From Daphnia pulex (Eukaryota; Arthropoda; Branchiopoda; Diplostraca; Daphniidae), in the NCBI RefSeq assembly GCF_021134715.1, contig NC_060028.1, positions 394,501 through 458,500 on the forward strand: DNA of 64,000 bases, written 5' to 3'. Shown here piece after piece: positions 10,212 through 43,505 of the stretch. The notes below the pieces were generated by a model. The model saw only the letters and a list, made by a program, of their open reading frames with translations. It had not been told where the DNA came from and did no database searches. Both the position numbers and the translations under genes were made by a program. Position 1 is the stretch's first letter. Every line of letters starts with the position of its first letter.

Positions 10212-11763
10212 ACGTCCTACATTTGGCTGATGTAGGGCGATTTCTGAACGCATCCGGATCCTTCCGGAATTACCGATGGGTAGATCGGTGGATTTTCCCT
10301 TTGCCATCAGGGATGGGTATTGCTTTATGTCCTACTGTATCTCAGGGTATTTCACCTGAGCCTGTTGGATTTTCTGTTCAGAATTGCAAGCAAATCTGAC
10401 GGACCCACCTCCGAGGATAGGGGGTCTAAGCACATTGTGATATTCATCAGAATGTACCAAATCAACATACAGCTCGTCTGGCCGTGATTACTACCGAGAT
10501 TACCTCCTCCTCCTCAATCTCAGTTTCATCAAGCCCCCAAGACGCTCGGCCGTCGTGAAGTAGAGAGGGGTGGGCCTTTTATATAAATTCTGTGGCGCCG
10601 CCTGATGGTTGGGTGATGTACCAACCATGATCCCTTTGAGAGTTGAACTCATGCCTTGATTTGTTTTTTTTTGGTTAAAGCCACGCCCTATCCTACTTAC
10701 CCACTCTGTTCACACAATGCAATGTCTTATTTGACGCCACAATTTTGACATGTGACATCTATTTATTAACCATTTGGCAGTTATTTCCGAAGGATTAACG
10801 GTTGACATAAACTAATATGCACTAATATGATGCGCATTTTGGCCTTTTATACAAATGTGGACGATTCAGTATCTATTAGATTTTTGGCCGGCTAGACACC
10901 AGGGAATCTTTCTGTCAATTAACGTAGCACATTTTTTATTGTTTGATTTAATTTTCATTGGATTTAGTTATTAATATTTAATTGAGTGGATGGAATACCG
11001 GATTATCGTCCGATAGAGTGTCATACCCTGGCGGCGGATGTTGGCAACGTCGGGGATTGGGCGTGTCTATTCTAATCTACTGGACCTTTTTTTTGCCGGT
11101 TAGATCACACTCATCACAGGAAGAAAAACATCCAAGTAATCTTTTTGAAATATTTACATTTTTTCCCCACAGTATTCATGATTTATTTCATCGTTTAATT
11201 TCATTTTAATTGGTTTTAATTCAAGTCACACTAAAATCATTCCGAAATAACTGCTGAATGTTAAAACTGAGGTGTTACATGTCAAAATTCTGGCGTCAAA
11301 TGAAACAAATAATTGTGTGTGCAGAGTGGGTGACTCGGATAGGGCGTGGCTTTAACATCAGAACGTATCGAGCCCCGAGTTCGATTCTCCAAAGGAACAT
11401 AGATGGTTCACCACCCAACCACTGGGTGGCGCCCCGCCCAACTCTGCGTCACACAAGCGAGAGTCTAGGGGGGTAGTTAAACCTGAAGGTTTAATCATTT
11501 CAGACTCGCTGTATGTTGGTTTAGAAGAGTAAAGCTTCGCCCCATGTATCGGACATGTTTCGGGCACGTTAGGTTTGTTTGCAAGCCTGCGTTAAAATCC
11601 AACAGGCTCAGGTGAAATACCCTGAGAACAGTGACAATACCCTTCCCTGATGGCAAAGGGAAAATCCACCGAAAGCCTTCGGTAATTCCGGATGGATCCG
11701 GATGTGTTAAATCGCCCTACATCAGCCAAATGTGGGACGGTTTTTTTTTTAAATACCGTGGTC
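10212..11763. mobile_element. Foldback DNA transposon with about 600-bp inverted arms and candidate 9-bp TSD
   Basis: The left arm (about 10212-10800) and right arm (about 11215-11757) are imperfect reverse complements over most of their length. Shared blocks, read on the left arm, include ACATTTGGCTGATGTAGGG, GGATTTTCCCTTTGCCATCA, TATTTCACCTGAGCCTGTTG and AAAGCCACGCCCTATCC. Roughly 400 bases of non-coding loop separate the arms. GTAATTTCA occurs at 10203-10211 and again at 11764-11772, a possible 9-bp target-site duplication. Nine-base duplications with long inverted repeats are typical of Mutator-like elements. The right end carries about 24 extra bases (a T-run) not mirrored on the left, so the exact end is uncertain. 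No transposase is encoded, so this is a non-autonomous element. Confidence 0.75.
11320..11400 (+). other. tRNA-like patch with B-box motif inside the foldback arm
   Basis: GAGTTCGATTC near 11377 fits the Pol III B-box consensus. The preceding bases (AGTGGGTGACTCGG, then GGGCGTGGC) resemble a degenerate tRNA D-arm region. The fold is not that of an intact tRNA; a tRNA-derived origin for part of the element is possible. Confidence 0.25.
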
Positions 11764-14362: not shown

Positions 14363-16035
14363 GTACTTTCTTTTAAAAAAATTTCTATGGGGTTCCGCCA
14401 GAAATAGTTGATAGAATTTTTTCCTTTTAGCATTGCCAGAACCATATCTGGGAGCCCAGCCCAGATATGCACTTGTAATTTATCTAAGTCTACACAAATT
14501 ATCAATCTTCAGTTTCCAAACAACTATAATAATGGCTGAGGGATTAACCTGAAAGGAGAGTATAATTAATAATTTTAAAGTGACAGAAAGCAATACCTCA
14601 AATCTATCAATCTTACATTTCCCTAAATTAGAACTCAATGGCGTTCACCATAAAACTTGAGTAGCAGCATTTTCTTGCTTGTGTCCTTAAAATAGATTGC
14701 AGTAAAGAATTGGATCTGGTGAAGGCACCAATATCTTGAAGATTTACAACTTGACAGGGAAAAGTTAACCTGAAATGTTAGAAACCTTGAATATCACAGT
14801 AATTTAAAAACATGTTGGTAAAAGTAACTACCTTGCAACAGAAATTATTTAGCTTCAGAAGACATAGCTTGCATTATTGGCTGCTTTACTTATTGGCCCC
14901 AGTTGGCCAGGTCACACAACAACTTCAGCTCATTATCTAAAAATCTGACTATCTGACATTATCTAAAAACATTTAGTCAAGGATGCTGTAAGAATCATTA
15001 GCTAAAGGTTGTGTTATCTAGGTTATCTATTACTTACAAACAGTTGACTCATTATCCGATCTCCTTTGTTTAACTTTTTAATTTGTTTCGAACTTCGAAG
15101 AAACTTATGAAAGTTACGACTTGTTGGACGTGAAACGTGTAATGTCATATCTCTGTCTGACTGTCGAGTGCAACCAACATAAGATTCAAAACTCATTACC
15201 AGATGGCGTCACTGTCGCCCTTGTTGTTTCTGCACCGTGAAATGTGGAGAAATGGGCGAAACAAAGTGTTGCTATTTTATACTTATTTTTCTGTGATTTC
15301 AAATATCAAGCTGGACTTCGCATCTTATGTAGGTTTAGTTTGCCCTAGTTTCCTTATTTTGTATATTATACCAATTTATTTCTGCAAGTCTAGATGTATG
15401 CTGTCATTCCAACAAGTTGGTTTAGCGCTCAGTCACTGTTCAGCATGATCCTCAGGATATCAAAAGCCTAAAACCCATGTTTGAAGCCCACACATAGTGG
15501 AATACAAATGTTCCGAGATAGGTAATTTTGTCTTTACTGCTACCATACCAGAACAGTGAAGCATTAAGACCATCATAATTCAGATTTTCATGTAACATAG
15601 GTACTCTCGCTCATGAACCACAGGATCTTTTCGGAATCTTGCAATTTTGGTGGTTTAACCTACAACAGCTTGTCTTTTATTATGGCTGTTTCTACTTCTG
15701 TTTAGAAGGCAACTCAGCTGAGGGATAGGTAGAGTTTTATTTTTCATTTGTTTATCTGTGTAAATTTGTAAGTAACATAGAGTTATTTTTCCCATCTACT
15801 TAGAGTTTCAGTGACATGAAGAGTGTGGAATGAATAACGTACCTGCCATGTGTTTGTAAACATACCAGATCTGCTGGATGAAAATCCAATAATGCTTACT
15901 ATATTCATCACTCAAATGATAAAGGTAAAGCATCAGTTTATATCACCTGCCACCATACTGCTGCAAAAAAGTTCATGACACTTTCTTTATCATCAGAAAT
16001 TTATCTCAACACGAGGAGTAATGCTGTTGGTTGCT
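14363..16035. other. Long stretch without a recognised gene
   Basis: Only weak open frames are present; an 81-residue plus-strand frame at 15203-15448 has no family signature. A 10-bp inverted repeat (CATATCTGGG with CCCAGATATG) sits at about 14443-14470. The right end abuts the 829-bp direct repeat that flanks the retrotransposon array. Confidence 0.5.
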
Positions 16036-16864
16036 GTGAATGCCATTTTTACTGTTTTTCATCATGAACATTTTCAGTGTGCTTCTTAGAAAAGGTAAAG
16101 AATGATATACTTTTTACATTTTTATATTTTCATTAATGTAACACGTTTTTTTTTTTTTACAGAGCACGCAAGATCCCCACGGACATCCTTGAGCCAATGC
16201 TGGATTTGTCCATGGCAGAAGAGGGACTTCCACCAACGTTCTGCTCCAGCCTTATCTTCAAGACGTACGCTCATCCAGCTTCACTACTTCAGTGCTTCTT
16301 ATGCTGCTACAAAACTTTCAACTTTTCTCGCTTCACTGGCGAGTTGGATCACTTCAGTTGCTGTGACACACCTACAGTCACTCTCCACGGGATTATGGCC
16401 AGGTACCCGACAATTGACTTATTTTTGTAGATTATCTACTAGTAATATATTTGCGTTGAACTCTGTGTAATAATTCTAAAATCAGGCCCTTCTTGCGCGC
16501 AAACGAAGTTTTACTTGGACGTTTCTTTTTTCTAACGCTAGATGGCTTTTCGATATTTTTCAGCTGTCAAAACAGTCAGTTTCAGATACTTTGCACATCT
16601 CCTTAAACATTTATCGGTAGTTTTTTGTGGTAATCTTTTAGTGATAACTGACGATAACTATTCCCCCAACAAAGCTCACTTGTTAAATTTTCGATATTTG
16701 CTTTTTTTTTCTACTTCCGGTTTTACTCATTTCAGTCAGTAGTTTAGTAAATATTCATTCTACGTTCAAACAAATCACATATCCGTGATCCTCGTTAAAT
16801 TTGTGGTAAAGTTCATGTATTTTTTTGTACGATTTCGTACTTCCGGTTTCGAAAATTTTCCTGA
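16036..16864. repeat. 829-bp direct repeat, left copy, flanking the retrotransposon array
   Basis: This segment recurs at 29149-29977 with a constant offset of 13113 and identical translations throughout. It ends inside the left arm of the palindromic MITE (from 16668), just after TTTTCCTGA where the retrotransposon 3' end begins. The two copies bracket all three element copies, as an unusually long target-site duplication would. Confidence 0.9.
16163..16401 (+). other. Possible exon in the flanking repeat
   Basis: A T-rich tract and ACAG acceptor precede an open segment ending at a CAG/GTACCC donor. One frame reads RKIPTDILEPMLDLSMAEEG, another LIQLHYFSASYAATKLST. Neither is recognisable. 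The same candidate exon recurs at 29276-29514. Together with the candidate exon at 30308-30388 it could belong to one plus-strand gene interrupted by the array. Confidence 0.25.
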
Positions 16865-17083
16865 TGCATAGAATTTATTTTCATGAGATCATGACAACGA
16901 TCTATCAATAAAATGTGAACGATATGATGATACATTAAAAAGAATTAAAACATGGAGAATGAAAAAATGGAGAGATGGAGCAACTACAATACGCAATTAC
17001 AGCACATGCCACATATCCACTTCGATTACACTTACACGACACGATTTCGTTAAGTTCATACAGTTTGAGTTCTGGAGCTATCC

Positions 17084-20000
17084 TTATGCGGGCCCCAGTA
17101 GGCCTTCATCCCTGTCAGCTGCGTGAAGGTGGTTAGAGACCACTCTCATTGACCCTTGGATGGCTGCAAGTCGACTCTTCCGCCTGAAACGGCGCCACGC
17201 ATTAGGTTGTATGTTGAGGGAGTTGGCCACCGCGTTGTTGGACGGCATCCAGGAGCCCAAAGCGCCGATCACCACCGGAAGCGTCGGTCCAAGATGACCA
17301 TATTTGGCCACTTTCCGGTCGAATCCAGCTTGTAGGGATTCCGGAGCATCGAAAGGTATCGTCACGTCGATGATGAGCTGCGGTGTTGCGGAGGTGATGA
17401 CGATATCTGGGCGGAGGGTAGTGTCCGGGAACACCTGGTTGACACGAATCGTGTGACCGGCCCTGCAGATGATTTTGGCCAGTTCCAGCAGAATTGCGTC
17501 GTGTCGCCGTCCGATTTCCGGAAGGTTGACCCGGCAATGGCTGGTCACGTGAGACGTGGTCTCGGCGTCCGTCCTGCACCTTCGGCACTTCTTGTCAGGA
17601 GCCGAAATTCCAGGTGTGCCGAAAAGAGGTAGGATGGATAGTCGGCTGCGATGGATCAGCTTCCATTCTTCGAAGTTGAGTTTGGTGCGTGATGATGTGA
17701 GCCTGGCGATGTCGCTCGACGAGTCCAAAAGGAGACCTCTTGCCACTCTTCCCTGGTTTGAGGCGTTGGAGAGTTCGGTTGTCCATCGGCCCCTGATCAC
17801 CGTCCTCAATCCGCGGACAGCCTTGTTCGACAGGCAGGAGACGTCATCAGCGATCACTTTTGAAAGGGAACTATCGCTGGATACGTCGATCCTTGCGTGA
17901 AGACGCCTGGCTGCTTTTCGCGTTCGAGTCCATGTGTTCGGACCGCACCCGTAGAACCGAGTGTCGTACAGGCCCCCCTGTGTTGAGCCAGACAGGAAAT
18001 CGGAGAGGGGGAGCGGCACATCCGTGGCTTGGTCAATACCCCTGGAGACGGTTTTCTCAAGTTGGGCTCTGGCAACGAGACGGACAACTTGATCTTTGCT
18101 GTCCAACAGTTGAACGGCCCTGGCAATCGTCCACACATCAGCGTCTTTTTTAAGCTGAGAGGCGCCAAGCCCCCCAGCCCTCCGGTCCGCAAACAAGAAA
18201 GCAGTGTGGGCTGTGTGTGGCACGTATGCCACTTGGCGGAGGAATTCCGCACACCGAGTGTCCAGCTCGTCAAGGAAGCCCCTCTGTACGCGGCCAGTCG
18301 CCAGGTGATGCGAGAGAGACGGCAGGAGGTGCGCACGAAATACCTCCAGCTTCTGCCAAGGAGCCAGCAAGGAGTCCGCAATCTTGACTAGCTTCTCACG
18401 GAGGTCTGTGGCTGGTCTGAAGGTGAGCTTAGTTCCCATAGGGACGCCAAGATAATTTTCATACTCCCCTACATCCAGTGCCCGAATCTGGACACCGTTG
18501 ATGGAGAGCTTAGTGGACGTGCTGGCTCTCCCGTTGGTAATGGTGAGAGAAGAGCACTTCTTGGCATTGAAGCGGAGACCAAGAATTGAGGCTGTCGAAT
18601 TCATTCCATCGATAGTCGATTGAAGGCTGGTAGTGTCGGAGTCGGCCGCAGAGATGTCGTCAGCATAGGAAGTGGATTTCAGGCGAGTATTGAAGAGCTG
18701 GAATCCATGGGAGTTCGCCTTGGCCCGGCGGACTAGAGGCTCCGCTGCAAGATTAAAAATTATGGAGCTAAGCCCATCGCCTTGGCGGACTCCGGATGTC
18801 GGTCTCACCATCACCAGCTCCTTGCCGACAACGAAATGGAACTCGTTATGTTGGTAGATGTCGGTAAGGATGCTCCTTAAGGCCGGAGGGACTGGAAGAC
18901 TGCAGAAGAGTTGGTTGAGGTAGTCGTGAGGAAGTGATCCAAAGGCATTGGCCAAGTCCAGCCAGCAGATTGTTAAGTTTCTTTTCTGGGACTTGGCCTC
19001 CTCGATGGCACTCTCGAGCAGCATTGTGTGCTCCTGTATTCCGTGCATCCCCGGGAGGAAACCTTTCTGCTCTGGTGAAAGCCACTCGTTGCCGCTGGCC
19101 ACTGTGGTGATCCGGGAGGCAATGCATCCGGAGAAGAGCTTGTACAGCGTTGAGAGGAGTGAGATGGGCCGGAAGTTGCTGTAGTCTTCAGTCGACCCTT
19201 TCTTGAAGATCGGGATGGTTCGGGCCGATTTCCAGCACTTCGGTACACCAAGGCGCCACACTGCGGCATAAAGGACCTCCAGCAGGCGACATTCCGGATC
19301 CAGACGGGAGATGTCCTTGTACTCGACTCCGTCCGCTCCTGGGGCCGTGTTTGAGGCTCTTTTGAGTTTCCTGGCAATCTCAGATCTTGCTGGTGGGCTG
19401 GCAAGATGTTCGAGCTCTTCCTCAGATGGATTAGCCCAGCTGCATCCATCGTACACCCGCCTCGCTTCAAGTACTGCTGCCTCGGACGGGCGGGGCTGTT
19501 CATATGCACCCTTCAAGAAGTCAGTGGCAGCCTCAACAGTGCCGGTGTAGGCCTGGGAGGTCTCGCCCAGCACCTTCCGCACAGCTCGTTTCGGGAATCG
19601 CTTGAAAAGGGCTTGGATTCGGCCGGCCTCTTCCTTCTTCTTGGTGTTGTCTTTTTTTTTAATCCGCTGTTGTTGTCTTGACTGCTGTCTTCTATGAGCT
19701 GCAGGACTGTTCGGTGATCGCTCCTGAACCACTTGCTTTCTGCTGGCAGTAAGATCATCCGACTTTTTAGTGAGTCGATGCCAGTCGGCAGCGCAGCTTT
19801 CTGTCGCCAGATCCATATCCCCACGGTTGGAGCAGCGTAAGAAAACCGGGGCCCAAAGGTTAAAGAAAGCCTCAGCTGGAGATAAGGTGGAATCGACGGT
19901 CTCCTCCGCATCGTCGTCGCTCCCATCCGAATCCGTTTCGCTATCAAGTGGCATAGTGATCACGATTCCAGCACTCCGAGATGGTTGATTGCAGCGGAGT

Positions 20001-20878
20001 GAAGCGTCCACAGAGAGGTTGGTGTCAGAAACTTGTGTTGAGGTCGGAGGCTCCACTGGATAGGCAGCCCAACCGGTTGCGTCGAGAGCCCGTTGTGTTG
20101 TTAAAAGAGGAGATGGGTCATCAGAGAGTTCTCTCTCAGCGCTGGTGAGGTTGTGATTGGCTGGTAGAGCGAGAGTGGCGGCTTGTGAAACCGGGAGCAA
20201 AGAAGGAGCAACGGCTGATGATGTTGGAGGCGAGTTGTTGGTGACGCCATGGTTGTTGATGTTTCCCCTCCTGTGCTGACGGCCCTCGGCCAGCGTGGTC
20301 GGCGAGCGACGTTCCGGTGGTGGGGACCAGGAGTCATCACTGGCTCCTGAAGCAAGATTTCCATCCGGGGTCTCAACAGCCACCAGCTGAGCAGGAGCAG
20401 GTGAGAGCGGAGTGGTGCTAGGAGCCGAAGCGTCTGTCCAAGTTGGTGAGATGGCCGGCGCAGCTGCCGGTTGCCTGGTAGAACTAGATGGCCGGCATGG
20501 AAGCGAACAGTACTGGCGGCTACGCGAGGTTCGAGAAAAGTAGTTACAGCAGGCTGTGCTACGACAGCGGATGAAAGTCGCGGCATTCGTCGATGAGCGG
20601 CCAGGAGTGGTAGCAGGGCGGCCGGACGGAGATGGAGCCCAAGATGTGTCGAGGCTTCTGGCAGCTGGAGAGCTGGAAGGAGACTCGGTGTAGATTGGTG
20701 GGGCAGCTGGTAGGCTAACGGCTGGAGCTGGAACGACTGATTTATGGCCACGGCCCAGACGCTTGGCAGCTGCAGTAGCGATGACTGACGGGTAGCAGGC
20801 GGCCGAGCAGAATTTCTTTCTGTTGTTGGAGCTGAAGAAAGTGTTGTTGCATGCCTCGTTCCCGCAAGCCTTTTCCAT
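17084..20878 (-). CDS. Retrotransposon ORF: two zinc motifs, reverse transcriptase, CCHC and restriction-like endonuclease
   Basis: The ORF codes for 1264 residues. Two copies of an unusual zinc motif, C-x4-C-x13-C-x3-C, lie at residues 5-28 and about 103-126, where R2 elements carry CCHH fingers and a Myb domain. A long Ser/Pro-rich linker and a basic region follow. The reverse transcriptase spans roughly 500-850, with PISLLSTLYKLFSGCIASRI, motif A WLDLANAFGSL near 640, motif B SGVRQGDGLSS near 694, catalytic YADD at 738-741 and YLGVPMG downstream. The C-terminus has CRRCRTDAETTSHVTSHC (C-x2-C-x7-H-x4-C, from about 1098) and the endonuclease core RPDIVITS near 1154 with IIDVTIP near 1167. 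The protein would nick the target, bind element RNA and prime cDNA synthesis there. All catalytic motifs are present. The start at 20878 places the first zinc motif at the very N-terminus. Confidence 0.93.
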   Translation of the reverse strand: MEKACGNEACNNTFFSSNNRKKFCSAACYPSVIATAAAKRLGRGHKSVVPAPAVSLPAAPPIYTESPSSSPAARSLDTSWAPSPSGRPATTPGRSSTNAATFIRCRSTACCNYFSRTSRSRQYCSLPCRPSSSTRQPAAAPAISPTWTDASAPSTTPLSPAPAQLVAVETPDGNLASGASDDSWSPPPERRSPTTLAEGRQHRRGNINNHGVTNNSPPTSSAVAPSLLPVSQAATLALPANHNLTSAERELSDDPSPLLTTQRALDATGWAAYPVEPPTSTQVSDTNLSVDASLRCNQPSRSAGIVITMPLDSETDSDGSDDDAEETVDSTLSPAEAFFNLWAPVFLRCSNRGDMDLATESCAADWHRLTKKSDDLTASRKQVVQERSPNSPAAHRRQQSRQQQRIKKKDNTKKKEEAGRIQALFKRFPKRAVRKVLGETSQAYTGTVEAATDFLKGAYEQPRPSEAAVLEARRVYDGCSWANPSEEELEHLASPPARSEIARKLKRASNTAPGADGVEYKDISRLDPECRLLEVLYAAVWRLGVPKCWKSARTIPIFKKGSTEDYSNFRPISLLSTLYKLFSGCIASRITTVASGNEWLSPEQKGFLPGMHGIQEHTMLLESAIEEAKSQKRNLTICWLDLANAFGSLPHDYLNQLFCSLPVPPALRSILTDIYQHNEFHFVVGKELVMVRPTSGVRQGDGLSSIIFNLAAEPLVRRAKANSHGFQLFNTRLKSTSYADDISAADSDTTSLQSTIDGMNSTASILGLRFNAKKCSSLTITNGRASTSTKLSINGVQIRALDVGEYENYLGVPMGTKLTFRPATDLREKLVKIADSLLAPWQKLEVFRAHLLPSLSHHLATGRVQRGFLDELDTRCAEFLRQVAYVPHTAHTAFLFADRRAGGLGASQLKKDADVWTIARAVQLLDSKDQVVRLVARAQLEKTVSRGIDQATDVPLPLSDFLSGSTQGGLYDTRFYGCGPNTWTRTRKAARRLHARIDVSSDSSLSKVIADDVSCLSNKAVRGLRTVIRGRWTTELSNASNQGRVARGLLLDSSSDIARLTSSRTKLNFEEWKLIHRSRLSILPLFGTPGISAPDKKCRRCRTDAETTSHVTSHCRVNLPEIGRRHDAILLELAKIICRAGHTIRVNQVFPDTTLRPDIVITSATPQLIIDVTIPFDAPESLQAGFDRKVAKYGHLGPTLPVVIGALGSWMPSNNAVANSLNIQPNAWRRFRRKSRLAAIQGSMRVVSNHLHAADRDEGLLGPA

Positions 20879-20888
20879 CTTAGAAGAG

Positions 20889-20986
20889 TTGGTGTAGTAG
20901 AGTCGGTGTAGTAGAGTCGGTGAGGTAGAGTCGGTGTAGTAGGATCGGTGTAGTTTAGTCGGTGTAGTAGAATCGGTGTTGTTGAA
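20889..20986. repeat. Seven 14-bp repeats in the element 5' UTR (copy 1)
   Basis: Degenerate units of TCGGTGTAGTAGAG run head to tail directly upstream of the ORF start. Tandem repeats in a non-LTR 5' UTR often hold promoter or RNA-binding functions; that role is an inference. The same block is at 26092-26189. Confidence 0.85.
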
Positions 20987-21881
20987 GAGAGCTGTAAAAC
21001 GGAGAGACGGCTGGCGCCCAGATGATCAGTAGATAGTAAAATTCTTAAAATTTAGCTTGCCGGAGGAATAAAAATATGATGATAATAATGATGATGATGT
21101 AGGGAGCGTCGAGAGACTCCGTTAGTTGAAGTGGCTTTATTCCTTGATGCCAAGTATCGTCCTTGCATGCCCCAGTGGCAGCTGCCATCTGGTGGCGTTG
21201 TTGGAGTGCTGGATGGAGGCCACCTGGTGGAGAAAGTTGAAAACTCGGACCGTAGCGTTGAGCAGAGATCAGAGTAAGCAAATGCAGATAAATGGATGAG
21301 AGGATGGGTCAGCTCGGACAAAAATCAGCAGTGGCGTAGATTGATCATGCGGAGATGAAGACGAGCAAGCGATATTTTAAAACCTGCCCATTAGTTGAGT
21401 CCAGTGGAGCAGTATCAGCCGGGGCAGCGGTGAGGTGCCGAAAAGAGTGGAGATAGAGAAGTTGCCGTGGCCGAAAAGTGGTTGCAGCCAAGATGTGCGG
21501 TGTGGTGGTGGGAAGCGATGCGGTGATGGCCAGCTGCGGTGGAAACCAAGCTAGACAAAATGCGGCAGCTAGGCTAAAAATCGAAGTCGGAGCACCGGAG
21601 TATTAGCTCGGGCACTGGAGTAGAAGAAATAGCCTCGGTGTAGTAATGGGAGCGGCCAAGAATAGTCGGAGCACCGTAGATAGTTCGCTGGGCAGCGGAG
21701 TAGAGTTTTGCACGGCATACAGGTGTAAGGCGCAAAACAGTAGGAAGGACCTCTAGCGGCAGAAAGTTGGAGCTTGGGCCGGGGCGTCGGACTGTCAGAT
21801 GGATTGACACAGTAAAATAAAACTTGCCCAAATGCACTAAAATCACGGCCGAAATGTGGGGAACACTTAACTGCACGAGTG

Positions 21882-22067
21882 CTTGTTAAATTTTCGATAT
21901 TTGCTTTTTTTTTCTACTTCCGGTTTTACTCATTTCAGTCAGTAGTTTAGTAAATATTCATTCTACGTTCAAACAAATCACATATCCGTGATCCTCGTTA
22001 AATTTGTGGTAAAGTTCATGTATTTTTTTGTACGATTTCGTACTTCCGGTTTCGAAAATTTTCCTGA
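21882..22067. repeat. 186-bp MITE-arm segment at the copy 1/copy 2 junction
   Basis: This is a repeat of 16679-16864 and of 27085-27270. It abuts the 5' end of copy 1 on its left and the 3' end of copy 2 on its right, as a 186-bp target-site duplication would. Confidence 0.9.
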
Positions 22068-25000
22068 TGCATAGAATTTATTTTCATGAGATCATGACAA
22101 CGATCTATCAATAAAATGTGAACGATATGATGATACATTAAAAAGAATTAAAACATGGAGAATGAAAAAATGGAGAGATGGAGCAACTACAATACGCAAT
22201 TACAGCACATGCCACATATCCACTTCGATTACACTTACACGACACGATTTCGTTAAGTTCATACAGTTTGAGTTCTGGAGCTATCCTTATGCGGGCCCCA
22301 GTAGGCCTTCATCCCTGTCAGCTGCGTGAAGGTGGTTAGAGACCACTCTCATTGACCCTTGGATGGCTGCAAGTCGACTCTTCCGCCTGAAACGGCGCCA
22401 CGCATTAGGTTGTATGTTGAGGGAGTTGGCCACCGCGTTGTTGGACGGCATCCAGGAGCCCAAAGCGCCGATCACCACCGGAAGCGTCGGTCCAAGATGA
22501 CCATATTTGGCCACTTTCCGGTCGAATCCAGCTTGTAGGGATTCCGGAGCATCGAAAGGTATCGTCACGTCGATGATGAGCTGCGGTGTTGCGGAGGTGA
22601 TGACGATATCTGGGCGGAGGGTAGTGTCCGGGAACACCTGGTTGACACGAATCGTGTGACCGGCCCTGCAGATGATTTTGGCCAGTTCCAGCAGAATTGC
22701 GTCGTGTCGCCGTCCGATTTCCGGAAGGTTGACCCGGCAATGGCTGGTCACGTGAGACGTGGTCTCGGCGTCCGTCCTGCACCTTCGGCACTTCTTGTCA
22801 GGAGCCGAAATTCCAGGTGTGCCGAAAAGAGGTAGGATGGATAGTCGGCTGCGATGGATCAGCTTCCATTCTTCGAAGTTGAGTTTGGTGCGTGATGATG
22901 TGAGCCTGGCGATGTCGCTCGACGAGTCCAAAAGGAGACCTCTTGCCACTCTTCCCTGGTTTGAGGCGTTGGAGAGTTCGGTTGTCCATCGGCCCCTGAT
23001 CACCGTCCTCAATCCGCGGACAGCCTTGTTCGACAGGCAGGAGACGTCATCAGCGATCACTTTTGAAAGGGAACTATCGCTGGATACGTCGATCCTTGCG
23101 TGAAGACGCCTGGCTGCTTTTCGCGTTCGAGTCCATGTGTTCGGACCGCACCCGTAGAACCGAGTGTCGTACAGGCCCCCCTGTGTTGAGCCAGACAGGA
23201 AATCGGAGAGGGGGAGCGGCACATCCGTGGCTTGGTCAATACCCCTGGAGACGGTTTTCTCAAGTTGGGCTCTGGCAACGAGACGGACAACTTGATCTTT
23301 GCTGTCCAACAGTTGAACGGCCCTGGCAATCGTCCACACATCAGCGTCTTTTTTAAGCTGAGAGGCGCCAAGCCCCCCAGCCCTCCGGTCCGCAAACAAG
23401 AAAGCAGTGTGGGCTGTGTGTGGCACGTATGCCACTTGGCGGAGGAATTCCGCACACCGAGTGTCCAGCTCGTCAAGGAAGCCCCTCTGTACGCGGCCAG
23501 TCGCCAGGTGATGCGAGAGAGACGGCAGGAGGTGCGCACGAAATACCTCCAGCTTCTGCCAAGGAGCCAGCAAGGAGTCCGCAATCTTGACTAGCTTCTC
23601 ACGGAGGTCTGTGGCTGGTCTGAAGGTGAGCTTAGTTCCCATAGGGACGCCAAGATAATTTTCATACTCCCCTACATCCAGTGCCCGAATCTGGACACCG
23701 TTGATGGAGAGCTTAGTGGACGTGCTGGCTCTCCCGTTGGTAATGGTGAGAGAAGAGCACTTCTTGGCATTGAAGCGGAGACCAAGAATTGAGGCTGTCG
23801 AATTCATTCCATCGATAGTCGATTGAAGGCTGGTAGTGTCGGAGTCGGCCGCAGAGATGTCGTCAGCATAGGAAGTGGATTTCAGGCGAGTATTGAAGAG
23901 CTGGAATCCATGGGAGTTCGCCTTGGCCCGGCGGACTAGAGGCTCCGCTGCAAGATTAAAAATTATGGAGCTAAGCCCATCGCCTTGGCGGACTCCGGAT
24001 GTCGGTCTCACCATCACCAGCTCCTTGCCGACAACGAAATGGAACTCGTTATGTTGGTAGATGTCGGTAAGGATGCTCCTTAAGGCCGGAGGGACTGGAA
24101 GACTGCAGAAGAGTTGGTTGAGGTAGTCGTGAGGAAGTGATCCAAAGGCATTGGCCAAGTCCAGCCAGCAGATTGTTAAGTTTCTTTTCTGGGACTTGGC
24201 CTCCTCGATGGCACTCTCGAGCAGCATTGTGTGCTCCTGTATTCCGTGCATCCCCGGGAGGAAACCTTTCTGCTCTGGTGAAAGCCACTCGTTGCCGCTG
24301 GCCACTGTGGTGATCCGGGAGGCAATGCATCCGGAGAAGAGCTTGTACAGCGTTGAGAGGAGTGAGATGGGCCGGAAGTTGCTGTAGTCTTCAGTCGACC
24401 CTTTCTTGAAGATCGGGATGGTTCGGGCCGATTTCCAGCACTTCGGTACACCAAGGCGCCACACTGCGGCATAAAGGACCTCCAGCAGGCGACATTCCGG
24501 ATCCAGACGGGAGATGTCCTTGTACTCGACTCCGTCCGCTCCTGGGGCCGTGTTTGAGGCTCTTTTGAGTTTCCTGGCAATCTCAGATCTTGCTGGTGGG
24601 CTGGCAAGATGTTCGAGCTCTTCCTCAGATGGATTAGCCCAGCTGCATCCATCGTACACCCGCCTCGCTTCAAGTACTGCTGCCTCGGACGGGCGGGGCT
24701 GTTCATATGCACCCTTCAAGAAGTCAGTGGCAGCCTCAACAGTGCCGGTGTAGGCCTGGGAGGTCTCGCCCAGCACCTTCCGCACAGCTCGTTTCGGGAA
24801 TCGCTTGAAAAGGGCTTGGATTCGGCCGGCCTCTTCCTTCTTCTTGGTGTTGTCTTTTTTTTTAATCCGCTGTTGTTGTCTTGACTGCTGTCTTCTATGA
24901 GCTGCAGGACTGTTCGGTGATCGCTCCTGAACCACTTGCTTTCTGCTGGCAGTAAGATCATCCGACTTTTTAGTGAGTCGATGCCAGTCGGCAGCGCAGC

Positions 25001-27084
25001 TTTCTGTCGCCAGATCCATATCCCCACGGTTGGAGCAGCGTAAGAAAACCGGGGCCCAAAGGTTAAAGAAAGCCTCAGCTGGAGATAAGGTGGAATCGAC
25101 GGTCTCCTCCGCATCGTCGTCGCTCCCATCCGAATCCGTTTCGCTATCAAGTGGCATAGTGATCACGATTCCAGCACTCCGAGATGGTTGATTGCAGCGG
25201 AGTGAAGCGTCCACAGAGAGGTTGGTGTCAGAAACTTGTGTTGAGGTCGGAGGCTCCACTGGATAGGCAGCCCAACCGGTTGCGTCGAGAGCCCGTTGTG
25301 TTGTTAAAAGAGGAGATGGGTCATCAGAGAGTTCTCTCTCAGCGCTGGTGAGGTTGTGATTGGCTGGTAGAGCGAGAGTGGCGGCTTGTGAAACCGGGAG
25401 CAAAGAAGGAGCAACGGCTGATGATGTTGGAGGCGAGTTGTTGGTGACGCCATGGTTGTTGATGTTTCCCCTCCTGTGCTGACGGCCCTCGGCCAGCGTG
25501 GTCGGCGAGCGACGTTCCGGTGGTGGGGACCAGGAGTCATCACTGGCTCCTGAAGCAAGATTTCCATCCGGGGTCTCAACAGCCACCAGCTGAGCAGGAG
25601 CAGGTGAGAGCGGAGTGGTGCTAGGAGCCGAAGCGTCTGTCCAAGTTGGTGAGATGGCCGGCGCAGCTGCCGGTTGCCTGGTAGAACTAGATGGCCGGCA
25701 TGGAAGCGAACAGTACTGGCGGCTACGCGAGGTTCGAGAAAAGTAGTTACAGCAGGCTGTGCTACGACAGCGGATGAAAGTCGCGGCATTCGTCGATGAG
25801 CGGCCAGGAGTGGTAGCAGGGCGGCCGGACGGAGATGGAGCCCAAGATGTGTCGAGGCTTCTGGCAGCTGGAGAGCTGGAAGGAGACTCGGTGTAGATTG
25901 GTGGGGCAGCTGGTAGGCTAACGGCTGGAGCTGGAACGACTGATTTATGGCCACGGCCCAGACGCTTGGCAGCTGCAGTAGCGATGACTGACGGGTAGCA
26001 GGCGGCCGAGCAGAATTTCTTTCTGTTGTTGGAGCTGAAGAAAGTGTTGTTGCATGCCTCGTTCCCGCAAGCCTTTTCCATCTTAGAAGAGTTGGTGTAG
26101 TAGAGTCGGTGTAGTAGAGTCGGTGAGGTAGAGTCGGTGTAGTAGGATCGGTGTAGTTTAGTCGGTGTAGTAGAATCGGTGTTGTTGAAGAGAGCTGTAA
26201 AACGGAGAGACGGCTGGCGCCCAGATGATCAGTAGATAGTAAAATTCTTAAAATTTAGCTTGCCGGAGGAATAAAAATATGATGATAATAATGATGATGA
26301 TGTAGGGAGCGTCGAGAGACTCCGTTAGTTGAAGTGGCTTTATTCCTTGATGCCAAGTATCGTCCTTGCATGCCCCAGTGGCAGCTGCCATCTGGTGGCG
26401 TTGTTGGAGTGCTGGATGGAGGCCACCTGGTGGAGAAAGTTGAAAACTCGGACCGTAGCGTTGAGCAGAGATCAGAGTAAGCAAATGCAGATAAATGGAT
26501 GAGAGGATGGGTCAGCTCGGACAAAAATCAGCAGTGGCGTAGATTGATCATGCGGAGATGAAGACGAGCAAGCGATATTTTAAAACCTGCCCATTAGTTG
26601 AGTCCAGTGGAGCAGTATCAGCCGGGGCAGCGGTGAGGTGCCGAAAAGAGTGGAGATAGAGAAGTTGCCGTGGCCGAAAAGTGGTTGCAGCCAAGATGTG
26701 CGGTGTGGTGGTGGGAAGCGATGCGGTGATGGCCAGCTGCGGTGGAAACCAAGCTAGACAAAATGCGGCAGCTAGGCTAAAAATCGAAGTCGGAGCACCG
26801 GAGTATTAGCTCGGGCACTGGAGTAGAAGAAATAGCCTCGGTGTAGTAATGGGAGCGGCCAAGAATAGTCGGAGCACCGTAGATAGTTCGCTGGGCAGCG
26901 GAGTAGAGTTTTGCACGGCATACAGGTGTAAGGCGCAAAACAGTAGGAAGGACCTCTAGCGGCAGAAAGTTGGAGCTTGGGCCGGGGCGTCGGACTGTCA
27001 GATGGATTGACACAGTAAAATAAAACTTGCCCAAATGCACTAAAATCACGGCCGAAATGTGGGGAACACTTAACTGCACGAGTG
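22068..27084 (-). mobile_element. Non-LTR retrotransposon, full-length copy 2
   Basis: This copy repeats copy 1 at +5203 with the same 5' UTR repeats (26092-26189), ORF and 3' UTR. Its 5' end at 27084 again adjoins the 186-bp MITE segment, so the element's 5' end is defined identically twice. Confidence 0.9.
22287..26081 (-). CDS. Retrotransposon ORF, copy 2
   Basis: The 1264-residue protein is identical to the one at 17084-20878, with the same paired zinc motifs, RT motifs A-C (YADD), CCHC and RPD...D endonuclease. The ORF is intact. Complete identity over 3.8 kb argues for very recent duplication, gene conversion or an assembly repeat. See copy 1 for domain details. Confidence 0.93.
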   Translation of the reverse strand: MEKACGNEACNNTFFSSNNRKKFCSAACYPSVIATAAAKRLGRGHKSVVPAPAVSLPAAPPIYTESPSSSPAARSLDTSWAPSPSGRPATTPGRSSTNAATFIRCRSTACCNYFSRTSRSRQYCSLPCRPSSSTRQPAAAPAISPTWTDASAPSTTPLSPAPAQLVAVETPDGNLASGASDDSWSPPPERRSPTTLAEGRQHRRGNINNHGVTNNSPPTSSAVAPSLLPVSQAATLALPANHNLTSAERELSDDPSPLLTTQRALDATGWAAYPVEPPTSTQVSDTNLSVDASLRCNQPSRSAGIVITMPLDSETDSDGSDDDAEETVDSTLSPAEAFFNLWAPVFLRCSNRGDMDLATESCAADWHRLTKKSDDLTASRKQVVQERSPNSPAAHRRQQSRQQQRIKKKDNTKKKEEAGRIQALFKRFPKRAVRKVLGETSQAYTGTVEAATDFLKGAYEQPRPSEAAVLEARRVYDGCSWANPSEEELEHLASPPARSEIARKLKRASNTAPGADGVEYKDISRLDPECRLLEVLYAAVWRLGVPKCWKSARTIPIFKKGSTEDYSNFRPISLLSTLYKLFSGCIASRITTVASGNEWLSPEQKGFLPGMHGIQEHTMLLESAIEEAKSQKRNLTICWLDLANAFGSLPHDYLNQLFCSLPVPPALRSILTDIYQHNEFHFVVGKELVMVRPTSGVRQGDGLSSIIFNLAAEPLVRRAKANSHGFQLFNTRLKSTSYADDISAADSDTTSLQSTIDGMNSTASILGLRFNAKKCSSLTITNGRASTSTKLSINGVQIRALDVGEYENYLGVPMGTKLTFRPATDLREKLVKIADSLLAPWQKLEVFRAHLLPSLSHHLATGRVQRGFLDELDTRCAEFLRQVAYVPHTAHTAFLFADRRAGGLGASQLKKDADVWTIARAVQLLDSKDQVVRLVARAQLEKTVSRGIDQATDVPLPLSDFLSGSTQGGLYDTRFYGCGPNTWTRTRKAARRLHARIDVSSDSSLSKVIADDVSCLSNKAVRGLRTVIRGRWTTELSNASNQGRVARGLLLDSSSDIARLTSSRTKLNFEEWKLIHRSRLSILPLFGTPGISAPDKKCRRCRTDAETTSHVTSHCRVNLPEIGRRHDAILLELAKIICRAGHTIRVNQVFPDTTLRPDIVITSATPQLIIDVTIPFDAPESLQAGFDRKVAKYGHLGPTLPVVIGALGSWMPSNNAVANSLNIQPNAWRRFRRKSRLAAIQGSMRVVSNHLHAADRDEGLLGPA

Positions 27085-27270
27085 CTTGTTAAATTTTCGA
27101 TATTTGCTTTTTTTTTCTACTTCCGGTTTTACTCATTTCAGTCAGTAGTTTAGTAAATATTCATTCTACGTTCAAACAAATCACATATCCGTGATCCTCG
27201 TTAAATTTGTGGTAAAGTTCATGTATTTTTTTGTACGATTTCGTACTTCCGGTTTCGAAAATTTTCCTGA
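27085..27270. repeat. 186-bp MITE-arm segment at the copy 2/copy 3 junction
   Basis: Third occurrence of the 16679-16864 segment, placed between the 5' end of copy 2 and the 3' end of the truncated copy. Confidence 0.9.
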
Positions 27271-29140
27271 TGCATAGAATTTATTTTCATGAGATCATGA
27301 CAACGATCTATCAATAAAATGTGAACGATATGATGATACATTAAAAAGAATTAAAACATGGAGAATGAAAAAATGGAGAGATGGAGCAACTACAATACGC
27401 AATTACAGCACATGCCACATATCCACTTCGATTACACTTACACGACACGATTTCGTTAAGTTCATACAGTTTGAGTTCTGGAGCTATCCTTATGCGGGCC
27501 CCAGTAGGCCTTCATCCCTGTCAGCTGCGTGAAGGTGGTTAGAGACCACTCTCATTGACCCTTGGATGGCTGCAAGTCGACTCTTCCGCCTGAAACGGCG
27601 CCACGCATTAGGTTGTATGTTGAGGGAGTTGGCCACCGCGTTGTTGGACGGCATCCAGGAGCCCAAAGCGCCGATCACCACCGGAAGCGTCGGTCCAAGA
27701 TGACCATATTTGGCCACTTTCCGGTCGAATCCAGCTTGTAGGGATTCCGGAGCATCGAAAGGTATCGTCACGTCGATGATGAGCTGCGGTGTTGCGGAGG
27801 TGATGACGATATCTGGGCGGAGGGTAGTGTCCGGGAACACCTGGTTGACACGAATCGTGTGACCGGCCCTGCAGATGATTTTGGCCAGTTCCAGCAGAAT
27901 TGCGTCGTGTCGCCGTCCGATTTCCGGAAGGTTGACCCGGCAATGGCTGGTCACGTGAGACGTGGTCTCGGCGTCCGTCCTGCACCTTCGGCACTTCTTG
28001 TCAGGAGCCGAAATTCCAGGTGTGCCGAAAAGAGGTAGGATGGATAGTCGGCTGCGATGGATCAGCTTCCATTCTTCGAAGTTGAGTTTGGTGCGTGATG
28101 ATGTGAGCCTGGCGATGTCGCTCGACGAGTCCAAAAGGAGACCTCTTGCCACTCTTCCCTGGTTTGAGGCGTTGGAGAGTTCGGTTGTCCATCGGCCCCT
28201 GATCACCGTCCTCAATCCGCGGACAGCCTTGTTCGACAGGCAGGAGACGTCATCAGCGATCACTTTTGAAAGGGAACTATCGCTGGATACGTCGATCCTT
28301 GCGTGAAGACGCCTGGCTGCTTTTCGCGTTCGAGTCCATGTGTTCGGACCGCACCCGTAGAACCGAGTGTCGTACAGGCCCCCCTGTGTTGAGCCAGACA
28401 GGAAATCGGAGAGGGGGAGCGGCACATCCGTGGCTTGGTCAATACCCCTGGAGACGGTTTTCTCAAGTTGGGCTCTGGCAACGAGACGGACAACTTGATC
28501 TTTGCTGTCCAACAGTTGAACGGCCCTGGCAATCGTCCACACATCAGCGTCTTTTTTAAGCTGAGAGGCGCCAAGCCCCCCAGCCCTCCGGTCCGCAAAC
28601 AAGAAAGCAGTGTGGGCTGTGTGTGGCACGTATGCCACTTGGCGGAGGAATTCCGCACACCGAGTGTCCAGCTCGTCAAGGAAGCCCCTCTGTACGCGGC
28701 CAGTCGCCAGGTGATGCGAGAGAGACGGCAGGAGGTGCGCACGAAATACCTCCAGCTTCTGCCAAGGAGCCAGCAAGGAGTCCGCAATCTTGACTAGCTT
28801 CTCACGGAGGTCTGTGGCTGGTCTGAAGGTGAGCTTAGTTCCCATAGGGACGCCAAGATAATTTTCATACTCCCCTACATCCAGTGCCCGAATCTGGACA
28901 CCGTTGATGGAGAGCTTAGTGGACGTGCTGGCTCTCCCGTTGGTAATGGTGAGAGAAGAGCACTTCTTGGCATTGAAGCGGAGACCAAGAATTGAGGCTG
29001 TCGAATTCATTCCATCGATAGTCGATTGAAGGCTGGTAGTGTCGGAGTCGGCCGCAGAGATGTCGTCAGCATAGGAAGTGGATTTCAGGCGAGTATTGAA
29101 GAGCTGGAATCCATGGGAGTTCGCCTTGGCCCGGCGGACT
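27271..29140 (-). mobile_element. Non-LTR retrotransposon, 5'-truncated copy 3
   Basis: It matches the other copies from the 3' end up to GGCCCGGCGGACT at 29140, then breaks off between RT motifs B and C. An 8-base filler (CCATTTTG) joins it to the right 829-bp repeat at 29149. 5' truncation with short filler or microhomology is usual for target-primed insertions. Confidence 0.9.
27490..29140 (-). pseudogene. Truncated retrotransposon ORF (RT motif C to endonuclease)
   Basis: The remnant keeps the last roughly 550 codons: YADD, the thumb region, CCHC and RPD...D endonuclease. It lacks both zinc motifs and RT motifs A and B, so it cannot work alone. An open frame continues into flanking DNA to an ATG at 29184, adding about 16 unrelated residues; that fusion is accidental. 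Confidence 0.9.
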
Positions 29141-29148
29141 CCATTTTG

Positions 29149-29977
29149 GTGAATGCCATTTTTACTGTTTTTCATCATGAACATTTTCAGTGTGCTTCTT
29201 AGAAAAGGTAAAGAATGATATACTTTTTACATTTTTATATTTTCATTAATGTAACACGTTTTTTTTTTTTTACAGAGCACGCAAGATCCCCACGGACATC
29301 CTTGAGCCAATGCTGGATTTGTCCATGGCAGAAGAGGGACTTCCACCAACGTTCTGCTCCAGCCTTATCTTCAAGACGTACGCTCATCCAGCTTCACTAC
29401 TTCAGTGCTTCTTATGCTGCTACAAAACTTTCAACTTTTCTCGCTTCACTGGCGAGTTGGATCACTTCAGTTGCTGTGACACACCTACAGTCACTCTCCA
29501 CGGGATTATGGCCAGGTACCCGACAATTGACTTATTTTTGTAGATTATCTACTAGTAATATATTTGCGTTGAACTCTGTGTAATAATTCTAAAATCAGGC
29601 CCTTCTTGCGCGCAAACGAAGTTTTACTTGGACGTTTCTTTTTTCTAACGCTAGATGGCTTTTCGATATTTTTCAGCTGTCAAAACAGTCAGTTTCAGAT
29701 ACTTTGCACATCTCCTTAAACATTTATCGGTAGTTTTTTGTGGTAATCTTTTAGTGATAACTGACGATAACTATTCCCCCAACAAAGCTCACTTGTTAAA
29801 TTTTCGATATTTGCTTTTTTTTTCTACTTCCGGTTTTACTCATTTCAGTCAGTAGTTTAGTAAATATTCATTCTACGTTCAAACAAATCACATATCCGTG
29901 ATCCTCGTTAAATTTGTGGTAAAGTTCATGTATTTTTTTGTACGATTTCGTACTTCCGGTTTCGAAAATTTTCCTGA
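29149..29977. repeat. 829-bp direct repeat, right copy (contains the unoccupied insertion site)
   Basis: It repeats 16036-16864 with a constant offset. Here the sequence runs on past TTTTCCTGA into the rest of the intact MITE, so this copy shows the target as it was before insertion. Confidence 0.9.
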
Positions 29978-30170
29978 ACTATAGTTCAGGAAAATTCTCG
30001 ATTTTGGCCAAAAATTGGATTTCGTTTAAAACATATCAGATCGACCCCAAATTTCATGGGGATCACGAATATCTGGTTTATTTTGACGACAGCCCAACAG
30101 TTGAGGAGCTATTGCTTACTTCCGGTATACTTCCGGAAAATTTTCGACAAACTAGCAAGTGAGCTTTGTT
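29781..30170. mobile_element. 390-bp palindromic MITE (retrotransposon target site)
   Basis: The ends are AACAAAGCTCACTTG (29781-29795) and its exact reverse complement (30156-30170). The two halves pair imperfectly over their full length. The central 30 bases (29967-29996) form a perfect palindrome centred between 29981 and 29982, so there is almost no loop. No clear target-site duplication was seen. The retrotransposon 3' junction in the occupied copy corresponds to 29977/29978, four bases from the centre. Confidence 0.85.
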
Positions 30171-30307
30171 CTGTGTACCATTCTCAGTATTGCTAGTTAA
30201 ATTTTAAGCAATTGAAATTGCGCTTTTTAAGTTTTGAGCAAAAAAAACAGATAAATGTACCTTTATGTGTCCTGTAACTTAATGAGAATTATTTTGTCTC
30301 CATCCAG

Positions 30308-30388
30308 GAAATACAGACGTTGAGAAGACGGATACCAAAACATCGCCAGTATCTCCAAAATGTCATCGCGGATCATCATTTGTTGTTG
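30308..30388 (+). other. Possible orphan exon (27 codons)
   Basis: CATCCAG acceptor and TTG/GTAATA donor enclose an open phase-0 stretch, EIQTLRRRIPKHRQYLQNVI and seven more residues. It may belong to a plus-strand gene spanning the retrotransposon locus. No family is recognised. Confidence 0.25.
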
Positions 30389-30410
30389 GTAATATGTGTG
30401 TGTTTGTTAG

Positions 30411-30623
30411 TTAACCCGTTGCTGCCACGCCTTTGTTCCCCCTTGTCGATACGGTGATCCATTCTTGAGGCATGCATTCCATGTTCTCCTATCACCGTGT
30501 CAGCCCGGACTTGTCAGCAATGGCAAGTCCCCCTCCCACCCTTGGTCATGGATCCTTCAGACATGGCTCGTAGTGAGTAGAGAACAACCTACGGGTTGTA
30601 TGGCGTGGCAGCCAACGGGTTAA
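30411..30623. mobile_element. piggyBac-like MITE, about 210 bp
   Basis: TTAA stands at both ends. Inside it the termini are CCCGTTG-CTGCCACGCC and its near-perfect inverse GGCGTGGCAG-CCAACGGG. TTAA duplication with CCC...GGG ends is the signature of piggyBac-family elements. No coding capacity. Confidence 0.8.
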
Positions 30624-31145
30624 CTTAAGTGTATGTATATGTGTATCAGTGTATGTGTGCATGTATGTTGTTTTCGCAAAACTGTGGAGGAATTGTGGGT
30701 GGAGGTGGGACAATATACACAATTCTCATATCATTTATAATTTGTATATTTCATTTCTCACTCATACAGAAGATACACCATAGCACAAATTATATATTAC
30801 TGTTGCTCAACTCAAGTTACTGCTGTAAAACTTAAATCTGTAACTAGATAATGTTGAATCCCCTTGTTGTTTAAGAGTAGACTCCACTCGAATCTCTTCA
30901 ACCATTTCAAGATGAACATTCTACTTACTACAATAAATTCTCTGACAGGAACAAATACGGCAGCCCCTTTCAGATTAAACAGTTGCTAAACCTGCAACAA
31001 AATAAAGAAAAGAAAAATTTCAACAAAAAAGGAATGGACAGTTACTTTGCACATTGATAAACAAAAATCAACAACCTACAAATACATACATCAATAAGGT
31101 GGCTTTCATTTAACCATTTGGACTTGCACGGCATCAAGAGTACAA
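30624..31145. other. AT-rich stretch without a recognised gene
   Basis: It contains a GT-rich run (about 30625-30665) and short open frames without protein-like content. Confidence 0.5.
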
Positions 31146-40592: not shown

Positions 40593-40643
40593 TTTCTGTA
40601 GGAGATTTTAGAGAATAGAATTTGAACGCTAAAAGGGACCACC

Positions 40644-40650
40644 TTTTATA
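40644..40650 (-). promoter_or_regulatory. TATA box of the CUB-domain gene
   Basis: TATAAAA on the minus strand, about 50 bases upstream of the ATG at 40592. Confidence 0.65.
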
Positions 40651-43447: not shown

Positions 43448-43454
43448 TATAAAA
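43448..43454 (+). promoter_or_regulatory. TATA box of ankyrin gene 2
   Basis: TATAAAA stands 58 bases before the ATG. ACTCAACAGCAGT about 25-30 bases downstream may hold the initiator. Confidence 0.65.
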
Positions 43455-43505
43455 CGACACGAAACAAAGCCACTCAACAGCAGTAAGTTTTGAAATTTTT
43501 CTAAA

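Follow-up and report, generated by a model that had tools for sequence, protein, structure and literature searches.

A tandem array of an R2-like retrotransposon in Daphnia pulex, probably built from insertions with long target-site duplications at a palindromic site and from later tandem duplication

The window analysed here, a stretch of 64,000 nucleotides of the Daphnia pulex genome, holds three copies of one element (win1, win2 and win3), which window-internal sequence comparison places in the order 829-win3-186-win2-186-win1 (element sense; Table 1), where the numbers stand for pieces of target in base pairs. Exact copies of the 186-bp piece start at positions 16679, 21882, 27085 and 29792, and the segment 16679-18734 recurs at 27085-29140 without a single difference (2056/2056). 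The exact repeats of 829, 5203 and 2056 bp are of a length beyond chance. Within the 8-bp filler CAAAATGG, seven of the eight letters match AAAATGG, which is located 8-14 bp upstream in the flank. A first-pass annotation of this DNA had described one 3' junction for all three copies, the same 186-bp target piece after two full copies, and an 829-bp direct repeat that brackets the array and whose right copy continues into unbroken target, and all three observations hold. The two copies that it called full, win1 and win2, belong to identical 5203-bp units, and each is short of about 105 bp of 5' sequence carried by 6/6 full-length copies elsewhere. This missing end had escaped the first reading, as had the high copy number of the target repeat and the perfectly palindromic site.

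Table 1. Features of the array and its target in the window (strand given where assigned).
Feature	Position	Strand	Remarks
Target-repeat copy, left part	15168..16035	.	alignment to L063; extra sequence near 15550-15895 in the window copy
829-bp target stretch, 3' side of array	16036..16864	-	runs on into left flank; 829/829 identical to 29149-29977
Element copy win1, 5017 bp	16865..21881	-	lacks ~105 bp of the 5' end found in full-length copies elsewhere
Open reading frame of win1, 1264 aa	17084..20878	-	reverse transcriptase at 559-787; CCHC knuckle and R/K-PD...D endonuclease-like region near C terminus
186-bp target piece, win1/win2 spacer	21882..22067	-	identical to 16679-16864
Element copy win2	22068..27084	-	equals win1; units 16679-21881 and 21882-27084 identical (5203/5203)
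Open reading frame of win2, 1264 aa	22287..26081	-	
186-bp target piece, win2/win3 spacer	27085..27270	-	from repeat comparison
Element copy win3, 5'-truncated, final 1870 bp only	27271..29140	-	element positions 3148-5017, 100% identical
8-bp filler CAAAATGG (element sense)	29141..29148	-	parts win3 from the right 829-bp copy
829-bp target stretch, 5' side of array	29149..29977	-	runs on into right flank; read as target-site duplication of win3
Intact 30-bp perfect palindrome, target site	29967..29996	.	putative nick after TTTTCCTGA, on either strand
Same target-repeat copy, right part	29978..30725	.	alignment to L063 and L003-L007

The 1264-aa open reading frame matches the Pfam domain RVT_1 (1.4e-21), and R2 proteins rank first in a phmmer search (1.9e-50 vs 1e-19 for L1). 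A single reading frame with a non-LTR-type reverse transcriptase is the arrangement of RLE-type (restriction-like-endonuclease type) non-LTR retrotransposons. Near the C terminus, CRRCRTDAETTSHVTSHC and RPDIVITSATPQLIIDV contain a CCHC knuckle and a PD...D motif and align to an R2 protein over residues 1096-1198 (phmmer); we take the two motifs to be the endonuclease signature of RLE-type elements, from which catalysis is predicted. Elements of the strict R2 clade have one or more N-terminal CCHH zinc fingers and a Myb domain. At the N terminus of the Daphnia protein, two Cys-rich motifs were read by eye, while Pfam gave no zinc-finger or Myb domain at its cut-off and only zf-CGNR at 0.025. 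Rfam searches of the window and of L035, L037 and L040 gave no family at gathering score. For an HDV-like ribozyme at the 5' end, no Rfam match was obtained in L037 372-700 at E values up to 5, and a diverged ribozyme could still be present there. A truncated copy at locus C9 is identical to the window element over 1274 bp, which points to recent activity.

The target is the palindrome, which sits in a high-copy dispersed repeat, and not the R2 site in 28S rDNA. Its 26-bp core occurs at 389 sites of the 133-Mb genome with at most one mismatch. The target repeat contains only short reading frames (8 of at least 60 aa, the longest of 121 aa, in the one copy L006). It also has a local inverted duplication. 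When the insert and one 829-bp copy are taken out of the window, the flanks align unbroken to an empty target repeat on another contig, L063 (emptied-window 15895-17329 vs L063 3825-5276, 78.5% identity with 27 gap openings). This single-piece alignment identifies the 829-bp repeat as a duplication within one continuous target. Since the alignment continues through position 16036, a coincidental repeat boundary at this position was rejected. The same applies to a reading of the 829-bp copies as the LTRs of an LTR element: the stretch is part of a dispersed repeat that extends further, within which the element has its end at a fixed palindrome.

Next to this target, the 3' junction of the element is constant. 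All three window copies end in CTATGCA|TCAGGAAAA in element sense, equivalent to TTTTCCTGA|TGCATAG on the plus strand, and the identical junction is present in 20/20 measured copies across the genome, which represent 18 loci, all at the same palindrome. At the 11 loci of the window's family, the A half of the palindrome was used at four and the B half at seven. There is no poly(A) at this junction. In families A and B, the 3' end of the element retains CTAT at -7 to -4, like the intact site, and a used half-site might therefore still be recognised. The count draws on 24 DNA matches, from which five weaker ones (L020, L021, L023, L031 and L032) were set aside; these are 65-78% alike, and none has a target-repeat match in the flanks compared. 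It covers B_C7 and B_C5b for the 3' side only and, of the 47 matches listed, excludes other fragments as well as family C (49-52%). One of the five, the old copy L020 (77-78%), can be aligned as far as position 5013 of the 5017 in the element but lacks the TCAGG junction, and its compared flanks show no match to the palindrome-bearing target, which suggests that the sites used by older relatives may have been different ones. The first-pass annotation had proposed a site-specific element inserting from one fixed position; the R2-like protein and the single junction at 18 loci agree with both proposals. We conclude that a recently active, site-specific R2-like non-LTR retrotransposon is the best explanation of the element.

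In contrast to the 3' end, the 5' junction is variable, and all 5' junctions measured elsewhere differ from one another. Seven other loci show direct target duplications of seven different lengths. Four are exact duplications of 17 bp (C3), 23 bp (B_C8), 105 bp (B_C5a) and 159 bp (B_C9), and that at C2 is identical over 371/371 bp. For C5a and C1, the lengths of 629 and 1284 bp were taken from coordinates, and all bases compared (581/629 and 498/1284, respectively) are identical. Upstream of the element at C1, C2 and C5a, the palindrome is intact. Target losses of approximately 37 bp (C4), 24 bp (C5b), 44 bp (C9), 46 bp (C3tr), 104-122 bp (C10tr) and 54 bp (B_C12) were also found. The 8-bp loss predicted by a symmetric second cut was seen at 0/13 other loci with measured 5' junctions. 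Duplications accompany 6/7 full or nearly full copies vs 3/8 truncated ones (Fisher p 0.12, with win1 and win2 counted once, C10, B_C2, B_C7 and B_C5b left out, and the 5'-completeness of B_C9 and B_C8 uncertain), and we therefore do not claim a link between 5' truncation and target loss. The search for further junctions thus upholds the earlier suggestion of very long target-site duplications, and given the varied lengths elsewhere, the 829- and 186-bp repeats are best read as such duplications.

These loci also bear on two rival explanations. The array could have arisen without any long target-site duplication, through ordinary segmental duplication or through unequal crossing-over of adjacent target repeats; this would suit a target that is a dispersed repeat with a local inverted duplication. 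We consider this highly improbable: the 829-bp copies are 100% identical, whereas the other 38 scored target-repeat copies are 82-88% alike, and the direct flank duplications at other loci vary in length and stop exactly at the insertion. Alternatively, a truncated insertion with the 829-bp duplication and a nearly full-length one with the 186-bp duplication might lie on separate haplotypes that were strung together in the assembly, or a repeat might have been expanded there. Every repeat is indeed 100% identical, including the two 5203-bp units, and the flanks would be common to both alleles. However, the assembly comprises only 13 contigs for 133 Mb, comparable duplications exist at other loci and no sign of a join is visible in the sequence, so that we regard an artefact of this kind as unlikely.

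At 2/18 loci, the flank duplications are inverted rather than direct: at C10 over at least 1500 bp (100%) and at B_C2 over at least 1077 bp (100%), the latter with a loss of six bases at the site. As for a long inverted duplication, a single 220-base probe for each locus, placed about 10 kb out on one side, gave no second copy in the vicinity. Such inverted duplications are not a product of simple TPRT and speak against the full explanation given below. They might be accommodated if the 5' end were routinely closed onto a second intact target copy (sister chromatid, homologue or fold-back partner) instead of the nicked one, with one side of the partner site giving direct duplications, from hundreds of bp up to 1.3 kb in length, and the other inverted ones. 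This would allow a symmetric target without a symmetric second cut, as seen in the lack of 8-bp losses. We put the idea forward as speculation only; if true, the element could seed local palindromes as well as tandem arrays.

As a mechanism, we propose that the enzyme nicks one strand of the 30-bp palindrome after TTTTCCTGA and that cDNA is primed at this nick, the constant 3' junction being what is observed. The 5' end would then be closed by end repair at a distance that is not fixed, so that up to about 120 bp of target are lost in some insertions and as much as 1284 bp directly duplicated in others. In the window, one product would be 5'-truncated, with the 829-bp duplication and the 8-bp filler, and another nearly full-length, with the 186-bp duplication. 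The latter, in a unit of 5203 bp, may have been doubled later; unequal exchange across the 186-bp repeats would be the simplest way. Two routes could have brought both products into one row: insertion of the second product at the 3' half-site next to the first, or recombination between two insertion alleles. Overall, the array was probably built from long-duplication insertions plus ordinary tandem duplication, and we consider the whole explanation, from the fixed nick of an R2-like enzyme and scattered 5' joining to two products and the later 5203-bp duplication, to be likely.

The first-pass annotation had instead suggested three serial insertions at one nick, the truncated copy first (829 bp) and then two full copies at the junction of element 3' end and target (186 bp each). 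This scheme yields the observed repeat order, and the retained CTAT could allow repeated use of the half-site. It would, however, need two independent events that agree in both the 186-bp duplication and the 105-bp 5' truncation, although the other measured 5' junctions differ from one another, and at the other family A loci no second copy is found at the used 3' junction (about 1.2-1.5 kb of 3' flank). We therefore find it improbable. Since win1 and win2 share the truncation and the duplication to the base, they would be duplicates of one insertion; judged from their sequences, one insertion with tandem duplication appears simpler than separate insertions. Stacking at a regenerated intact site, also proposed, fails to give 829-186-186, as the newest copy would then be found on the 5' side of its predecessors, and its piece could at most equal the duplication it had entered in length. 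The earlier interpretation is thus partly supported.

A single event is a further alternative, in which a multimeric or read-through RNA delivered all three copies with one 829-bp duplication and a truncation in the last-copied unit. The truncated copy is the 5'-most, as expected where cDNA synthesis stopped, and template jumping by R2-type enzymes has been published (PMC2718515, PMC3414825). Yet between its units the RNA would have to carry the 186-bp piece of target, starting precisely at the nick position, which requires a pre-existing array as template and makes such an event very unlikely.

Comparing the proposed insertion mode with known systems, the element resembles the R2 clade (R2Bm, R2Tg and others) in its reverse transcriptase, CCHC motif and endonuclease-like C terminus, which align to R2 proteins, and in its fixed 3' junction without poly(A) and variable 5' junction, the behaviour described for R2 (PMC2718515). 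Unlike R2, which targets 28S rDNA, it uses a palindrome in a dispersed repeat, its duplications reach 1284 bp and its N terminus shows two Cys-rich motifs by eye. The long duplication cited earlier for R9 of bdelloid rotifers, above 100 bp, is given as 126 bp (PMC6895275); both elements share long duplications, but the range per insertion here extends from loss to 1284 bp. Tandem stacking, which the first reading had called unusual, has a precedent in Drosophila R1, where tandem copies at one site are likewise spaced by a target-site duplication (PMC2718515). The R1 duplications measure 14 bp, and new copies presumably go into the 5' duplication, while the window pieces, of 186 and 829 bp, stand in an order that such entry alone does not explain. 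Utopia, of the NeSL clade, has been reported from Daphnia pulex, where its authors could not find the termini (PMC4640811). It is also an RLE-type element of this species but targets U2 snRNA genes. L1 carries an endonuclease of another type and is not tied to one fixed site. Long target-site alterations are nevertheless common to both, and in L1 those over 20 bp form the separate classes L-TSD (duplications) and L-TST (losses) (PMC4245944).

The completion of LINE-type insertion, that is second-strand cleavage and 5' joining, is described as little understood, one reason being that cleavage sites in general lack palindromic symmetry (PMC6895275). The Daphnia element offers a natural experiment in this respect. 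Its R2-like enzyme has a perfect palindrome as target, present in 389 intact or almost intact sites, and the first cut is fixed while the second joints are widely scattered; several young insertions have duplications identical over all bases compared. These data suggest that where the second cut falls is not dictated by site symmetry. Where a duplication is long, moreover, the element has an intact target and extended homology next to it, from which tandem arrays can arise directly.

The 1264-aa open reading frame in both long element copies (win1 and win2) encodes a reverse transcriptase (Pfam RVT_1, 1.4e-21). Its nearest solved relatives belong to R2 (1.9e-50), with L1 far behind (1e-19), and its C-terminal CCHC + RPD...D region can be aligned to R2. 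Based on these sequence features, the element is R2-like and of the restriction-like-endonuclease type. Membership in R2 proper is withheld, because R2 in the strict sense targets 28S rDNA whereas this element has another target, because an HDV-like ribozyme sought in the element was not found, and because the N terminus of the ORF gave no Pfam zinc-finger match at the accepted level.

The repeats described in the first-pass annotation (829 bp, 186-bp pieces) proved to be real and exact. Read 5' to 3', the array runs 829, win3, 186, win2, 186, win1, target. Elsewhere in the window, the direct duplicates within 35038-46351 perhaps represent a duplicated host gene.

Features of the retrotransposon array and other repeats in the window
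Feature	Position	Description
829-bp direct repeat, left copy	16036-16864	exact match to right copy
829-bp direct repeat, right copy	29149-29977	exact match to left copy
5203-bp unit, first copy	16679-21881	exact
5203-bp unit, second copy	21882-27084	exact
5203-bp unit, partial third occurrence	27085-29140	first 2056 bp, exact
win1	16865-21881	long element copy, minus strand
win2	22068-27084	long element copy, minus strand
win3	27271-29140	5'-truncated element copy, minus strand
8-bp filler	between win3 and right 829-bp copy	element sense CAAAATGG
Insertion site	29967-29996	perfect 30-bp palindrome
Inverted repeat pair	10213-11739	about 0.5 kb, 69% identity
Diverged direct duplicates	35038-36923 and 44646-46351	about 71-75% identity

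The 829-bp stretch is part of a dispersed repeat (best 40 scored of 655 candidates), and the 38 scored matches beyond the array are 82-88% alike. The 26-bp core of the palindromic insertion site, TTTTCCTGAACTATAGTTCAGGAAAA, has 389 matches at ≤1 mismatch in the searched genome (133,188,837 bases, 13 contigs), with further site pairs spaced 2.7-3.2 kb among the matches listed. One stretch lacking the element (L063, G000:C2:12888600-12895400) is a 6.8-kb self-inverted repeat (97.8%) that contains two target-repeat copies, their palindromic sites 2.75 kb apart.

Genome searches returned 24 DNA and 47 protein matches to the element. The measured set comprised 20 copies at 18 loci: 13 copies of the window's own family (family A) at 11 loci, six of family B, about 67% alike, and B_C2, a further relative detected among the protein matches. 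In all 20 copies, the 3' end lies exactly before TCAGGAAAA. Five weaker matches were excluded from this count, and the target of the window element was not matched in the flanks compared for them. Family A used the A half of the palindrome at 4/11 loci and the B half at 7/11, whereas all six family B copies (L041-L045, L052) and B_C2 used the B half only. A third family, related at 49-51% protein identity (L048, L049, L050, L054; G000:C8:6938977-6967674), forms a tandem array of 8871-bp period, with copies 99.9-100% identical over compared stretches; a tRNA-like gene in L048 adjoins this array, and the L063 target was not matched there.

The long target-site duplications proposed in the first-pass annotation hold up, with direct duplications adjoining the element at seven further loci: 17 (C3), 371 (C2), 629 (C5a) and 1284 bp (C1) in family A, and 23 (B_C8), 105 (B_C5a) and 159 bp (B_C9) in family B. 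The copies are identical over every base compared (in the longest, C2 371/371, C5a 581/629 and C1 498/1284, lengths being taken from coordinates), and the palindrome is intact upstream of all seven duplications. Other loci showed approximate target losses of 37 (C4), 24 (C5b), 44 (C9), 46 (C3tr), 104-122 (C10tr) and 54 bp (B_C12); two family B loci, B_C7 and B_C5b, are absent from the 5' measurements. The 8-bp loss predicted for a symmetric cut of the palindrome was found at 0/13 loci with listed direct duplications or losses.

Two loci, C10 and B_C2, have the site and the opposite half in the 5' flank; past the site, an inverted copy of the 3' flank follows, with 100% identity across at least 1500 and at least 1077 bp, respectively (stretches L040, L064 and L065 on G000:C10; L058 and L066 on G000:C2). 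At the cut position, the B_C2 site is six bases short. A single probe at each locus, placed about 10 kb away, gave no second copy in the vicinity, and the inversion therefore looks local. These loci may be insertions into existing palindromes accompanied by deletion, or the palindromes may have been made by insertion; both origins are considered because an element-free inverted target duplication exists (L063).

Serial insertion of copies, as initially suggested for the array, is replaced here by two insertions and one duplication, given the identical 5' loss and 186 bp of win1 and win2. The 5' end is about 105 bases longer in 6/6 full-length copies elsewhere, and since other measured 5' junctions differ, two independent insertions with the same 5' loss and the same 186-bp duplication are unlikely. 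A single insertion whose 5203-bp unit was later duplicated across the direct repeats of 186 bp would be a simple explanation of both copies. The 829-bp duplication with win3 has a separate 5' junction and therefore represents a separate event. AAAATGG is found in the flank 8-14 bp upstream of its filler, which may thus resemble what templated end joining leaves. Either a nearly full-length copy would have inserted at the used 3' half-site adjoining win3, or alleles flank-829-win3-target and flank-186-element-target would have recombined inside the common 186 bp. CTAT is kept at the element 3' end at an offset equal to the intact site, a weak hint that half-site reuse may be possible. R1-style entry into a regenerated upstream site would not by itself give the observed order, in which an 829-bp piece is outermost. 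It is also possible that the array is an assembly artefact.

In excerpts of published work, R1 arrays consist of tandem copies with 14-bp duplications, for which entry into the regenerated upstream site was proposed, and some R2 junctions show deletions or duplications (PMC2718515). Such excerpts also record R2 duplications >20 bp, R1 tandem arrays and template jumps (PMC3414825), a 126-bp stagger for R9 and mostly non-palindromic cleavage sites (PMC6895275), long target-site alterations as a class of their own (PMC4245944), transposons and other repeats among non-LTR targets (PMC5035012, PMC4640811), and a Utopia family listed for Daphnia pulex, its termini not found (PMC4640811). Judged by title and abstract start, the open-licence papers listed included none that deals with this element family or with duplications near 1 kb in the R2 group, a weak negative.

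Given the duplications and losses measured at other loci, the 829 and 186 bp of the window are lengths that fit the spread seen in this lineage. A 5'-truncated copy elsewhere (L053, G000:C9:9188234-9189283) matches the window copies across 1274 bp with 100% identity, and the lineage has therefore moved recently.
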